Shown: positions 8,118 to 13,999 of the stretch, piece after piece
How positions within the stretch are numbered: the stretch's first letter is position 1
Layout of the letters: every line of letters begins with the position of its first letter
Program-made: the position numbers and the translations under genes
DNA from: Alphaproteobacteria bacterium
GTDB lineage: Bacteria > Pseudomonadota > Alphaproteobacteria > Caulobacterales > Maricaulaceae
Assembly (NCBI GenBank): GCA_021776705.1
Contig: JAJFFL010000258.1
Span: 1-32,827 of the forward strand
Direction of reading: 5' to 3'
DNA: 32,827 nt
The notes under the pieces: generated by a model
Databases searched by the model: none
Told to the model about the DNA's origin: nothing
Seen by the model: only the letters and a program-made list of their open reading frames with translations

Positions 8118-11100
8118 CTAACGCGCGGCGTCGGTGTCGAGCTGTTCGAGCAAAGTCGCGTCGATCACGCCGGTCACGGCCAGTCCGGCCGCCGCTTGAT
8201 AGGCTTCGACCGCGTCGCGCGTGCGCGGGCCCACGGCCCCGTCGGCCGGCCCGATGTCGTAGCCGAGCTTGGCCAAAAGCGTCTGGGCGCGGGCGATCGC
8301 CGCTTCGTCGTCGAGCGACGGCGCGTCCCACGGGGTGTCGGCGAAGACGCCGTTGGCGGCCGGATCCGGCGTGCCGGGGGTGAAACGCTCGACGGCCTCG
8401 TCGGCGCGGTCGAGGGCTTCCGTGTCGAGGCGGCCGCCGACCGAGTCGGCGCGCAACGCCGCGTCGCCGTCGCCGGAGCGTCCGGCGATGGCGTACCACG
8501 CGTAGGCGTCCGGCAGGGAGAGCGGGACGCCGAGACCTTGTTCGTACAGCACCGCGAGATTGTACTGCGAATCCGTCGCCCCGAGGAGCGCCGCCTCCTC
8601 GAACCAGCGCGCCGCTTGTTCAAAATCTTGCGAGGCGCCGCGGCCTTCGGCGTAGTAGATGCCGAGATTGTGCATCGCCTTGCGGTGTCCGGCGTTGGCG
8701 GCGCGCTCGGTCCAGCGCCGCGCCTCGGCGAGGTCTTTGCTGCCGACGCCGCGGCCGTTTTCGTACAGTTTCGCCAGCCGGTATTGGGCCGACGGCAAAC
8801 CATTTTCGGCCGCCTGGCGGATGTAGCGAACGCCTTCGTCGACAAGTCCCGCCTGAAGTTTCACCGCGCCGAGTTGATACTGGGCGATCGGATCGCCGGC
8901 TTCGGCGGCGGATTCGATGTCCGAGGACGGCGCGACGACGGCCGCCGGAGCGGGAGCGTCGACGTCGGCGATCTCGACGGGAATCGTCGGAACGGCGTCG
9001 ATTTCGAGGCCGGCGTCCACGCCTTCGTCCGGCGCGGCGACGGTCGCGGCTGCGGCCGCGCCGGAGTCCTCTTCGGCGATGAACGCCGCGTCGCCCTCGC
9101 CGGTCGGCGGCGTGAACGTGGCGGTCTCTTCGTCGAGGCCGACGGGCGTTTCCGGCGTGTCGGCGACCTCGTCCAATTCCACGGCCGCGTCGCGCCGGCC
9201 GAGCACGGCGGAGGCCGGAGCTCGGTTTTCGACGTCGCGGCGCGACACGGCGTCGCCGACGACGCCGTTCAGGGGATCGGCGCCAGCGTCGATGTCCGCG
9301 CCGTCCTGGGCCCCGTCGGACAGGATCATGTAGGCGGCCGCGGCGACCGACACGAAGGCCAGCACGCTGGCGGCGGCGAGGAGTCGCCGGCCGCGCCGCG
9401 GTTTGGCGGTTTGGCCGCTTACGGGACCGAATCCGGGCGACGACGCCTCAGCGTCGCGCGCGCGCCGCGCCGACCCGGGATCGGTCAGGAACCCTGGCGG
9501 CGGGGCCGTGTCGTCTTCGGAATCGGCGAACAGATCCGCGTCCTCGTCGAAGGCCGTCTCCGGCGCGTCTTCGTCGAAATCGTCGCCGCTCTCCGGACGC
9601 AACTCGAAGGAGCTTGAAATCTCAAAATCCGGACCCGCGTCGTCGGCGAACCCGTCGGCGTCTGGGTCGGGATGGTCGAACGCCGCGGTGGCGTCGTCGT
9701 CGTAGCCGCCTTCGGCCTCGGCCGGGTCGTCCTCGGACACGAACATCTCAAGATCTTCGCCGTCGGTCTCCCCGTCGTCCGCGGCGACAGGCTCGCCGGA
9801 TGTGTCGGCCTCGAATTCTTCGAACGCGGCGGCGGAGTCCTCGTCGTCGCCCCGCTCATCGTAGGCCGGGTCGGAAAAATCCATGTCCGCGTCAAATTCA
9901 AAACCGCGTTCGTCGTCGCCGCCGCGGTCTTCCGCGGCCGCCGGCCGCCGTTCGAGCGTCTCCAGCCGCGAGGTCAAGTTGGAGAGGGCGCGCTGCACCG
10001 GGCTTAGAGCCGCGGCGGTCTCGTCCTGGCCGGCGTCGAGGCGCTTGTAAACGTTCGACATCGCCTCTTCGACCATCCGCGACGTGCGCTCTTCGCTGGC
10101 CTGAATGCGCTCCACCAGATCGTCGGGGGCGCCGCCGCCGGCGGCGATGCGGCCGCCGAGGTCGTCGACGCGCGTCGACACGCCTTCCAGCGCGTCCGCG
10201 GAACGCCGCTCCGCGTCCGCAATCTTGTCTTGCAGTCTTTCCGCCACACGCGCGATCTCGTCGCCCATACGATCTACCGCGGCGACGCCGTTGTTCTCGA
10301 TTTCACGCAGCCGCGCCTCGATAGCATGGTCGATGTCGCCAGCGCCTTCAACGGCCTTGAGCGCCAAGGTTTCGGCCCGCGCTTCCATGCGCTTTTCCGA
10401 CTCCTTGATGCGGCCTTCCATCGCGCCGGCCAGCTTGCCGACTTCCGTCGCGATGCGTTCAAGCTGCTTGGATTGCCGGCTTTCTGATTGCGCCACTTTT
10501 TCCGCGATTTCGGCGATCCGCGCTTCGACGGCCCCGTCGATCGAGTCGCCGGACGCCGCCGCTTCCAGTTGGCCGGCGATGTCGACGCGGGTTTCGGCGA
10601 TCATCTCGCCGAGTTCCTTGCTGAGCGCGTCGAAGCGCGCGTCGATCGCCGCCGGGTCCGCGCCGACGGAATTTTCGACGCCGTTGAGGCGCGTTTCAAG
10701 ATCGGCGAGCGAGGCGCCGAGCGACTTCATGGCCTTGTCGGTGATGTTTTCCGCGTCGCCGAGGCGGTTGTTGATTTTGGCGACGGCGTCCTGCAAGGCG
10801 CCGGCGTCGCTGGTCTTTTTCAGTTGTTTTTCAACGAACTTCTCGATGTCCGCCCGCGCTTTTTGGATCTGCGCGTCGGCCACGTCCGCGGCCTTGTCGA
10901 CCTTGGTTGAAACTTCGCCGAGACCGGTTTCCAGCTCCGCCAGGCGGTCTTGGGCCAGCGTTTCGGTCGCCGTGACCCGGTCGGCCATCTGGTCGAGCGC
11001 CGCTTCAAGCGACTTCAGCTTGGCGAGGTCCTTGCCGCCGCCGTCGCTTTCCTCAAGCTTCTTGATCCGCTTTTGCAGCGCGTCCTGGGTGTCGCGAATG

Positions 11101-11426
11101 TTGGCGAGAGTGGCGTCGTACTTTTTCTGAAAATCGACGGTGGTTTCTTCTGAGTTTTGAAGTCGTGAAATGACTCCCAGCACCGATTGGTCGATGCCGG
11201 TGATCGCGAGCGTCGAGCGGTGTTCGGCGGCTTCGATTTTCCGCGACAGGCGCTCCAAGGCTCCCGGCAGACCGTCGGGATCGTCGTCGTCGTCGCCGCG
11301 ATCGTCGAGCAGGCGTCGGTTGAGCCATTCACCGATCGTGATGCCCTCTTTGCGGGCCTGCGCGCGCGCAATTTCTCGGGCGCGGGGATCGATCCCTCTC
11401 AAGCTCCATGAGCTCTCGGCGGCCAT
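8118..11426 (-). CDS. podJ: PodJ-like polar localization factor (coiled coil, TM, SEL1 repeats, peptidoglycan-binding domain)
   Basis: This 1102-residue protein has the architecture of PodJ, the scaffold that marks a cell pole in Caulobacter and relatives. The N-terminus has the characteristic SWSLRGIDPRAREIARAQARKEG...GEWLNRRL block. Residues about 45-480 are long coiled coil, about 490-660 a very acidic linker, and 682-702 a single membrane helix preceded by KPRRGRR, which places the N-terminus in the cytoplasm. The periplasmic part has about four SEL1 repeats (about 840-995: AQYQLG, AQYRLAKLYENGRGV, AMHNLGIYYAEGRGA, SQYNLAVLYEQGLGV) and a C-terminal PG_binding_1-like domain (about 1035-1100, AQTLLAKLGYDIGPADG). 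An AGGAG site precedes the start. Upstream DNA carries a CtrA-type site and GANTC sites. The gene name rests on architecture, so orthology should be confirmed. Confidence 0.8.
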   Translation of the reverse strand: MAAESSWSLRGIDPRAREIARAQARKEGITIGEWLNRRLLDDRGDDDDDPDGLPGALERLSRKIEAAEHRSTLAITGIDQSVLGVISRLQNSEETTVDFQKKYDATLANIRDTQDALQKRIKKLEESDGGGKDLAKLKSLEAALDQMADRVTATETLAQDRLAELETGLGEVSTKVDKAADVADAQIQKARADIEKFVEKQLKKTSDAGALQDAVAKINNRLGDAENITDKAMKSLGASLADLETRLNGVENSVGADPAAIDARFDALSKELGEMIAETRVDIAGQLEAAASGDSIDGAVEARIAEIAEKVAQSESRQSKQLERIATEVGKLAGAMEGRIKESEKRMEARAETLALKAVEGAGDIDHAIEARLREIENNGVAAVDRMGDEIARVAERLQDKIADAERRSADALEGVSTRVDDLGGRIAAGGGAPDDLVERIQASEERTSRMVEEAMSNVYKRLDAGQDETAAALSPVQRALSNLTSRLETLERRPAAAEDRGGDDERGFEFDADMDFSDPAYDERGDDEDSAAAFEEFEADTSGEPVAADDGETDGEDLEMFVSEDDPAEAEGGYDDDATAAFDHPDPDADGFADDAGPDFEISSSFELRPESGDDFDEDAPETAFDEDADLFADSEDDTAPPPGFLTDPGSARRARDAEASSPGFGPVSGQTAKPRRGRRLLAAASVLAFVSVAAAAYMILSDGAQDGADIDAGADPLNGVVGDAVSRRDVENRAPASAVLGRRDAAVELDEVADTPETPVGLDEETATFTPPTGEGDAAFIAEEDSGAAAAATVAAPDEGVDAGLEIDAVPTIPVEIADVDAPAPAAVVAPSSDIESAAEAGDPIAQYQLGAVKLQAGLVDEGVRYIRQAAENGLPSAQYRLAKLYENGRGVGSKDLAEARRWTERAANAGHRKAMHNLGIYYAEGRGASQDFEQAARWFEEAALLGATDSQYNLAVLYEQGLGVPLSLPDAYAWYAIAGRSGDGDAALRADSVGGRLDTEALDRADEAVERFTPGTPDPAANGVFADTPWDAPSLDDEAAIARAQTLLAKLGYDIGPADGAVGPRTRDAVEAYQAAAGLAVTGVIDATLLEQLDTDAAR

Positions 11427-11510
11427 CGCAACTGCTCCTCATCGCGGCGCGCCTTGGATGACCGACATCGGCCGAGCGCCAAACTCGTTGCTGTGCCGCT
11501 GTGATCCGCC

Positions 11511-11548
11511 GATTCCGTTGCGAATCACAATGCGCGCACGGGTGACTC
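11511..11548. promoter_or_regulatory. Cluster of three GANTC (CcrM-type) sites upstream of podJ-like gene
   Basis: GATTC (11511-11515), GAATC (11522-11526) and GACTC (11544-11548) fall within 38 bases of the podJ/merR intergenic region. GANTC is the CcrM methylation target that, with GcrA, controls cell-cycle genes in alphaproteobacteria. GANTC also occurs inside coding sequence elsewhere in the window, so the clustering and position, not mere presence, are the evidence. Confidence 0.45.
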
Positions 11549-11566
11549 GACCCTTCGCTGCTGCTG

Positions 11567-11581
11567 TTAACAGCGCGTTAA
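11567..11581. promoter_or_regulatory. CtrA-type binding site TTAA-N7-TTAA
   Basis: TTAACAGCGCGTTAA matches the CtrA full-site consensus TTAA-N7-TTAA exactly. Its left half is inside a perfect 12-base palindrome (GCTGTTAACAGC, 11563-11574). It lies about 140 bases upstream of the podJ-like start and 70 bases upstream of the MerR gene. In Caulobacter, podJ is a cell-cycle-controlled gene, which supports a real site. Confidence 0.6.
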
Positions 11582-11616: not shown

Positions 11617-11632
11617 TTGACGTTTACGTCAA
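11617..11632. promoter_or_regulatory. Perfect 16-base palindrome, likely MerR/LiuR-type operator
   Basis: TTGACGT-TT-ACGTCAA is a perfect inverted repeat with 7-base arms, ending 19 bases before the MerR start codon; another ACGTCA follows it directly. ACGT-centred dyads are typical of LiuR-type MerR regulators of acyl-CoA catabolism as I recall them, and the TTGACG could also serve as a -35 element. It most likely provides autoregulation of the downstream operon. Confidence 0.55.
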
Positions 11633-11651: not shown

Positions 11652-12137
11652 ATGATCAAGCCCGCCCCGTCCAACGCCGAATTTTCAATCCGCGATCTGA
11701 CGGCGGAGTTCGGCGTCACCGCCCGCGCTTTGCGCTTTTATGAGTCGAAAGGCCTGTTGAAGCCGGACCGGCGCGGCCAGGCGCGGGTTTACTCCGCCAA
11801 CGACCGAGCGCGGCTCGCCTTGGTGCTGCGCGGCAAGCGCGTCGGCTTTTCGCTCGATGACATTAAGGAAATGCTCGACCTCGACGACATCAGCCAAGGC
11901 GGTCGCGCCGCCATGGCCTCGGCGATCACCCGGTTCGACGAGCGCATTGAGGCGCTGAAGCGTCAACGCGCCGACATCGATCACGCGGTCGAAGAGCTCG
12001 AAGCCGGACGCGCATGGCTGAAGACGCGGCTCGCCGACGAGGAGCCGTCGCCGGAGTTGAAAACCCGCGCCGCCGCATTCGAAGAGCTTGCAAAATCTTG
12101 GCTTTACGGAGGCGAATCCCCCGCCGCCGCTGACTGA
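11652..12137 (+). CDS. MerR family transcriptional regulator (LiuR-like) of the acyl-CoA catabolic operon
   Basis: A 161-residue MerR-type regulator. The N-terminal winged helix-turn-helix is clear: [38 protein letters not shown] (about 11-48), followed by [27 protein letters not shown] and a coiled-coil dimerisation helix (about 95-135: [17 protein letters not shown]). There is no cysteine, so this is not a metal or redox sensor; an acyl-CoA ligand is plausible by comparison with LiuR-type regulators that sit with acyl-CoA dehydrogenases. It is the first gene of a plus-strand run of nine catabolic genes and has a perfect palindrome 19 bases upstream. The 68-base gap to the next gene has no obvious terminator, so co-transcription is likely. 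Confidence 0.85.
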
Positions 12138-12205
12138 TCCGTGGTACTTCAATTGTGAGGCGAGGGCGGCGCTCGAGGCTCGCCCCGCAAGGGAGACGAA
12201 ACCCG

Positions 12206-13999
12206 ATGCCGATCTATTCCGCCCCCGTTCGCGAGATGCAGTTCTTGTTCGACGACGTGCTGCAGGTCGACAAGTACTCGAACCTGCCCGGGTTCGCCGA
12301 CGCGCCGAAGGATCTGCGCGACGCGATCCTCGCCGAGGGCGCCAAATTCGCTGAAGAGGTCCTGCAGCCTCTCAATCGGGTTGGCGACCTCGAAGGCTGC
12401 GTGCGCAACGCCGACGCGTCGGTGACGACGCCGAAAGGCTTCAAGGACGCCTACAAGCAATTCGTCGACAACGGCTGGGGACTTTTGGCGGCGGACCCCG
12501 AATACGGCGGCCAAGGCCTTCCGCACGTGCTCAATCTTTCGTTCATGGAGATGGTGTCGTCGGCGAACCAAGCCTGGGGCATGTACCCGGGCCTGACCCA
12601 CGGCGCCTATTCCGCCATTCACGCCGGCGGCTCGGACGAGCAAAAGCGGACCTATCTGCCCAAGCTCGCCACCGGCGAATGGGGCGGCACCATGAATCTC
12701 ACCGAACCCCAATGCGGCACCGACCTCGGCCTGATCCGCACCAAGGCCGTGCCGCAGGGCGACGGGACCTACAAGATCACCGGCCAGAAGATCTGGATAT
12801 CCTCCGGCGAGCACGACATGGCCGACAACATCATCCACCTCGTGCTGGCGCGTCTCGAAGGCGCGCCGGAGGGGGTGAAAGGCATTTCGCTGTTCATCGC
12901 GCCCAAGTTTCTGGTCAAGGACGACGGCTCGCTCGGCGACCGCAACGGAGTCGAGTGCGGCGGCCTGGAAGAGAAAATGGGCATCCACGGCAATTCGACC
13001 TGCGTCATGAACTACGACGCCGCGACCGGCTATCTCGTCGGCGAAGAGAACAAGGGTCTGCGGACCATGTTCGTGATGATGAACGAGGCGAGGCTCGGCG
13101 TCGGCCTGCAAGGGTTGGCGATCTCCGAAGTCGCCTACCAGAACGCCGTCGCCTTTGCGAAAGACCGGGTGCAGTCGCGCTCGATCTCCGGCGACAAGCG
13201 GCCCGACCTGCCGGCCGACCCGATCATCGTGCACCCGGACGTGCGCCGCATGCTGATGGACACCAAGGCCTTCAACGAAGCCGCGCGCGCCTTCGCCTAC
13301 TGGACGGCGCTGCACGGCGATCTTGAGCACAAGTCGCCCGACGAAGACGTTCGCACCAAGTCCGGCGACTACATGGCCTTGCTGACGCCGATCATCAAAG
13401 CCTTCCTCACCGACCGCGGATTGAAGGGATGCAATGACAGCCTCCAGGTCTTCGGCGGATCGGGCTACGTCGAAGAGTGGGGCATGTCGCAATTCCTTCG
13501 CGACGTGCGCATCGCCTTGATCTACGAGGGCACCAACGGCGTCCAGGCGCTCGACCTCGTCGGCCGCAAGCTGGCGCTGCACGGCATGCGCCCGATCACG
13601 ACGTTCAACGCCGAACTCGACGACTTCATCGCCGAGAACCAAGACGACGCGGACCTCAAGCCGTTCATCGACGGCCTTAAGACGTCCAAAGATCGGCTCG
13701 GCGTGGCCACCAATTGGCTGGTGGAGAACGGCCTCGCCGATCCGGACAACGCCGGCGCCGCGTCGACCGATTACTTGATGATCTTCGGCTACACGGCGCT
13801 CGCCTACATGTGGGCGCTGATGGCCAAGTCGGCCTACGCCAAGAAGGCCGACGGCGGCGCCGGGGACGCCTTCTACGACACCAAGATCACCACCGGTCAC
13901 TACTTCGTCGAACGGCTGCTGCCGGAAACGGCGGCGCATCTAGAGAAGGTGCAAGCCGGCGCCGCGTCGATGATGGCCCTCGAGGCGGAGGCGTTCTGA
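12206..13999 (+). CDS. Acyl-CoA dehydrogenase with C-terminal extension (FadE/DmdC type)
   Basis: A 597-residue flavoprotein of the large acyl-CoA dehydrogenase group with the extra C-terminal domain (PF12806 type), the class that includes DmdC and several FadE enzymes. It would oxidise an acyl-CoA to the 2-enoyl-CoA. Visible motifs are [13 protein letters not shown] (substrate/FAD loop), [30 protein letters not shown] and the C-terminal [41 protein letters not shown]. The probable catalytic base is Glu441 in IYEGTNG, the MCAD-type position. The start at 12206 follows AAGGGAG by a good spacing; the ORF track start at 12155 is too long. Its stop and the next start overlap in TGATG. Exact chain length or substrate is unknown. 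Confidence 0.9.

Follow-up and report, generated by a model that had tools for sequence, protein, structure and literature searches.

The region upstream of the podJ orthologue in the analysed stretch of DNA (the window, 32,827 nucleotides) contains a conserved CtrA-type box, which was probably inherited from the common ancestor of Caulobacterales and is best explained as the CtrA box of an upstream, P1-type podJ promoter. The probability of this explanation as a whole, including regulation, is estimated to be about 0.8. The box lies in a 225-bp intergenic gap between podJ and the divergent merR gene. The motifs that a sequence-only reading of this DNA had pointed out there, one TTAA-N7-TTAA and three GANTC, were all found in place (Table 1).

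Table 1. Coordinates of the podJ–merR gap features and of the flanking genes (positions in the window)
Feature	Position	Strand	Remarks
podJ orthologue	8118-11426	-	1102 aa, PodJ architecture
Place of the P2-like promoter (TTTACA-N16-18-TAnnnT in 24 relatives)	11453-11487	-	No such promoter in the window
GANTC, GGAATCG on the podJ strand	11511-11515	.	CcrM-type site without full YGAKTCG context
GANTC in TGATTCG (extended GcrA context YGAKTCG)	GANTC 11522-11526, context 11521-11527	-	-101 to -95 from podJ
GANTC, CGAGTCA on the podJ strand	11544-11548	.	CcrM-type site without full YGAKTCG context
CtrA full box TTAA-N7-TTAA, TTAACAGCGCGTTAA	11567-11581	.	-155 to -141 from the podJ start codon; equivalent in 54/54 regions
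Palindrome TTGACGTTTACGTCAA, probable MerR operator	11617-11632	.	Palindrome core kept upstream of merR in 33/33 relatives
MerR-family regulator	11652-12137	+	Divergent from podJ
Acyl-CoA dehydrogenase (ACAD)	12155-13999	+	Next after merR; merR-ACAD-podJ synteny conserved

The CtrA box and its podJ orthologues

The product of the minus-strand gene has a WSLRGID N-terminus, a long acidic and coiled region, Sel1 repeats, and a C-terminal peptidoglycan-binding domain. Judging by this architecture, which is also that of relatives at the family and order level, and by the promoter geometry of order-level relatives, we assign the product to PodJ. Matches to it were found in all 60 relatives searched, some of them covering the repeat region only. 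Several PodJ orthologues (L042, L046, L049, and others, one Maricaulaceae subgroup) have no conserved WSVKGID N-terminus; their genes are still located near merR and preceded by a CtrA box.

TTAA-N7-TTAA occurred once in the whole window (0.01 expected in shuffles) and reads TTAACGCGCTGTTAA on the podJ strand. Its conservation, a comparison proposed by the sequence-only reading, was examined in a set of 54 upstream regions comprising the window and 53 orthologous podJ upstream regions from Caulobacterales relatives. TT[AT]A-N7-TTAA or TTAA-N7-TT[AT]A within 300 bp of podJ was counted as a CtrA-type box. Such a box was present in every region, vs. 1.6 in shuffles, and was perfect in 26 of them, vs. 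0.55 in shuffles. The first half-site was TTTA in many relatives, an imperfect fit to the textbook CtrA motif. In orthologues with the standard N-terminus, the box was mostly located at -155 to -180 from the start codon. It recurred upstream of podJ in named Maricaulaceae (the family of the window, with orthologues from Maricaulis, Oceanicaulis, Robiginitomaculum, Hyphobacterium, Woodsholea, and Euryhalocaulis), and several more distant Alphaproteobacteria had a CtrA-type box at -135 to -164. It is very improbable that all the motifs arose by chance in a gap richer in AT than the genome (68% GC): the motifs are short, and chance could account for the GANTC cluster by itself, but the box is conserved at a similar position across the relatives, which refutes the chance reading for the CtrA box.

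Genome-wide, the perfect CtrA motif was barely commoner than its backwards pattern (12 vs. 10 places). This control was discarded, since the dinucleotide content of AATT is not that of TTAA. Several other perfect boxes in the genome precede flgI, a flagellar rod gene, a cpa-type pilus locus, and a GGDEF-EAL gene; these intergenic boxes look as expected of a CtrA regulon and its typical targets.

The sequence-only reading had named a genome without ctrA or ccrM as evidence against cell-cycle control; both genes, and gcrA as well, are encoded. CtrA (C246) was 86% identical to the Caulobacter CtrA query and CcrM was 70% identical to its query; the ccrM gene is split at a contig end. Immediately upstream of ccrM in the same genome, four GANTC sites occur in approximately 35 bp (L106:1612-1647).

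The podJ promoter P1 of Caulobacter starts 120 bp upstream of the gene, with the CtrA full motif at -49 of P1, i.e., at approximately -169 (Zhou et al. 2015, PMC4287350). The window box at -155 matches this motif in position, and the three regulators are encoded as in Caulobacter. Brilli et al. 2010 (PMC2877005) do not mention podJ.

GANTC sites and the P2-like promoter

The sequence-only reading had attributed the three GANTC sites to control by CcrM and GcrA. Expected at the window's own rate are 0.54 sites in the gap, and across the window GANTC is depleted (79 sites vs. 176 in dinucleotide shuffles). However, when the 79 sites of the window are placed at random, three of them fall this close together somewhere in 19% of cases; taken by itself, the cluster is thus only slightly unusual. 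The sites lie at -122, -100, and -89 from the podJ start. TGATTCG alone among them fits the GcrA motif YGAKTCG, as cited in PMC7987155. Its context near -100 recurs in Euryhalocaulis (G003) and in three other relatives (G009, G010, and G020); GANTC near -100 was not significantly enriched overall in the 54 regions.

The site conserved in the relatives is a different one. Pooled over the 54 regions, GANTC occurred 92 times vs. 53 in shuffles and YGAKTCG 43 times vs. 9, an excess due mainly to a site 6–20 bp before the podJ start codon (about -7), which was present in 29 of the regions. A GANTC at about -7 from podJ was also observed in several distant Alphaproteobacteria; the podJ upstream loci that carry it include L044, L048, L050, and L160-L183. 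In the window, no start-proximal GANTC was found upstream of podJ. Conservation of GANTC is seen for the site approximately 7 bp before the start; the window's three appear to be mostly lineage-specific.

The start-proximal site accompanies a P2-like promoter, which in the relatives ends 26–39 bp before the podJ start. All 24 regions with this promoter carried the site vs. 5 of the 30 without it, a difference whose significance is inflated by kinship. The position of the promoter fits that of Caulobacter P2, which starts 22 bp upstream of podJ and has a GANTC at -24 of P2 (PMC4287350); the place of the GANTC disagrees, being approximately 7 bp before the start codon in the relatives. A TTTACAC-N4-TTAA-type sequence at about -60 in the relatives was considered as a second CtrA site, but it more probably represents the P2 -35 element, with which a CtrA half-site may overlap. 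DnaA-box-like sequences (TGTGGATA or TCCACA) were observed between -130 and -60 in 20 relatives, at approximately -95 in podJ upstream loci that have P2 (e.g., L045, L050, and L051).

The window has neither the P2-like promoter nor a DnaA-box-like sequence upstream of podJ, unlike the order-level relatives of family f3 and about half of the Maricaulaceae relatives, which have these elements and the start-proximal GANTC. G002, the nearest relative by the PodJ N-terminus, likewise has no P2-like promoter and no start-proximal GANTC. The GcrA/CcrM-linked P2 promoter was apparently lost in this lineage. Scanning the gap for consensus promoters and terminators gave no match, and since no sigma-70-like promoter was recognized between the CtrA box and podJ, the start position of P1 is a guess.

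The three GANTC sites may tentatively be regarded as a functional GcrA/CcrM module replacing the lost start-proximal GANTC and P2, at rather less than even odds. Their number in the gap against the overall depletion of GANTC and the recurrence of the TGATTCG context speak for such a module; the frequency of chance triples, the single fit to YGAKTCG, positions that are not common to G002, and the negative sigma-70 scan argue against it. By its upstream GANTC, one of them within YGAKTCG, the window resembles GcrA/CcrM-controlled podJ promoters (Fioravanti et al. 2013, PMC3667746; PMC7987155), and it differs from them in that its GANTC positions are not the one conserved in relatives. In Brevundimonas subvibrioides, too, GcrA is found at podJ, but its binding there does not activate the gene (Adhikari et al. 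2021, PMC7987155). The CcrM/GcrA claim thus stands in part: one site agrees with the GcrA motif and is also seen in a few relatives, whereas the start-proximal GANTC is absent.

The probable MerR operator in the shared gap

A TTGACGTTNACGTCAA-type palindrome was found approximately 20–90 bp before merR in all relatives having merR as the neighbour, and the palindrome of the window is the probable operator for control of merR and the acyl-CoA dehydrogenase gene. In this respect, the window resembles MerR regulators with a divergent palindromic operator beside an acyl-CoA dehydrogenase gene. No NCBIfam equivalog reached its cut-off, so no subfamily name was assigned to this MerR, and a literature search on the operator returned nothing specific.

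The CtrA box precedes the merR start by 70 bp and is farther from podJ. One could thus suppose that it acts mainly on the merR operon, or on merR and podJ together, and so couples catabolism to the cell cycle. We consider this improbable from the comparison of genomes in which the two genes are apart. In 18 genomes, merR lies 0.8–2.5 kb from podJ; the palindrome is found there with merR and the CtrA box with podJ. Of these 18 genomes, 3 had a CtrA-like box in the 200 bp upstream of merR, vs. 14 of the 15 in which merR adjoins podJ. Every podJ retains a CtrA-type box, and the palindrome always stays with merR. Because the separated sites follow their own genes, the CtrA box and the palindrome belong to different genes. 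The sequence-only reading had placed signals of cell-cycle control next to catabolic ones, which is true of this gap as a matter of synteny and not of joint control.

Proposed regulation of podJ

Most likely, CtrA~P binds the predicted box and, by analogy with Caulobacter, would activate a promoter starting roughly 100–110 bp before the podJ start codon. Activation would occur late in the cell cycle and supply the new pole of the predivisional cell with PodJ. The main rival is that CtrA acts at the box mainly as a repressor, keeping podJ off in swarmer cells. We consider repression less likely than activation: CtrA has been reported as a podJ repressor in Caulobacter (PMC3751295, PMC4432633), but the equivalent Caulobacter motif at -49 of P1 occupies an upstream position, and the activity of P1 is highest in predivisional cells (PMC4287350). 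Repression would also fit better with the second CtrA-like site over the P2 -35 element of the relatives, a site that the window does not have.

Besides activation by CtrA~P, CcrM could methylate all three GANTC sites, and TGATTCG is the sole good candidate for GcrA binding. MerR probably acts through its own palindrome on merR itself and on the acyl-CoA dehydrogenase gene. As for the cell-cycle control proposed by the sequence-only reading, its CtrA part is well supported at the level of sequence by the conservation of the box, the geometry of Caulobacter P1, and the presence of the three regulator genes, and its CcrM/GcrA part only partly.

The region upstream of podJ is thus best described as a cell-cycle promoter of an ordinary, known type, with predicted binding and timing and a lineage-specific placement of GANTC. 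It is possible, though we would not favour it, that podJ was rewired in this lineage, with P2 and the start-proximal GANTC lost, the CtrA-dependent P1 left, and possibly a new upstream GANTC module in place. The CtrA box of podJ P1 appears to be deeply conserved in Caulobacterales, whereas the part of the promoter that is linked to methylation changes from one lineage to another, and podJ may therefore serve as a concrete case of cell-cycle promoter rewiring at a polarity gene.
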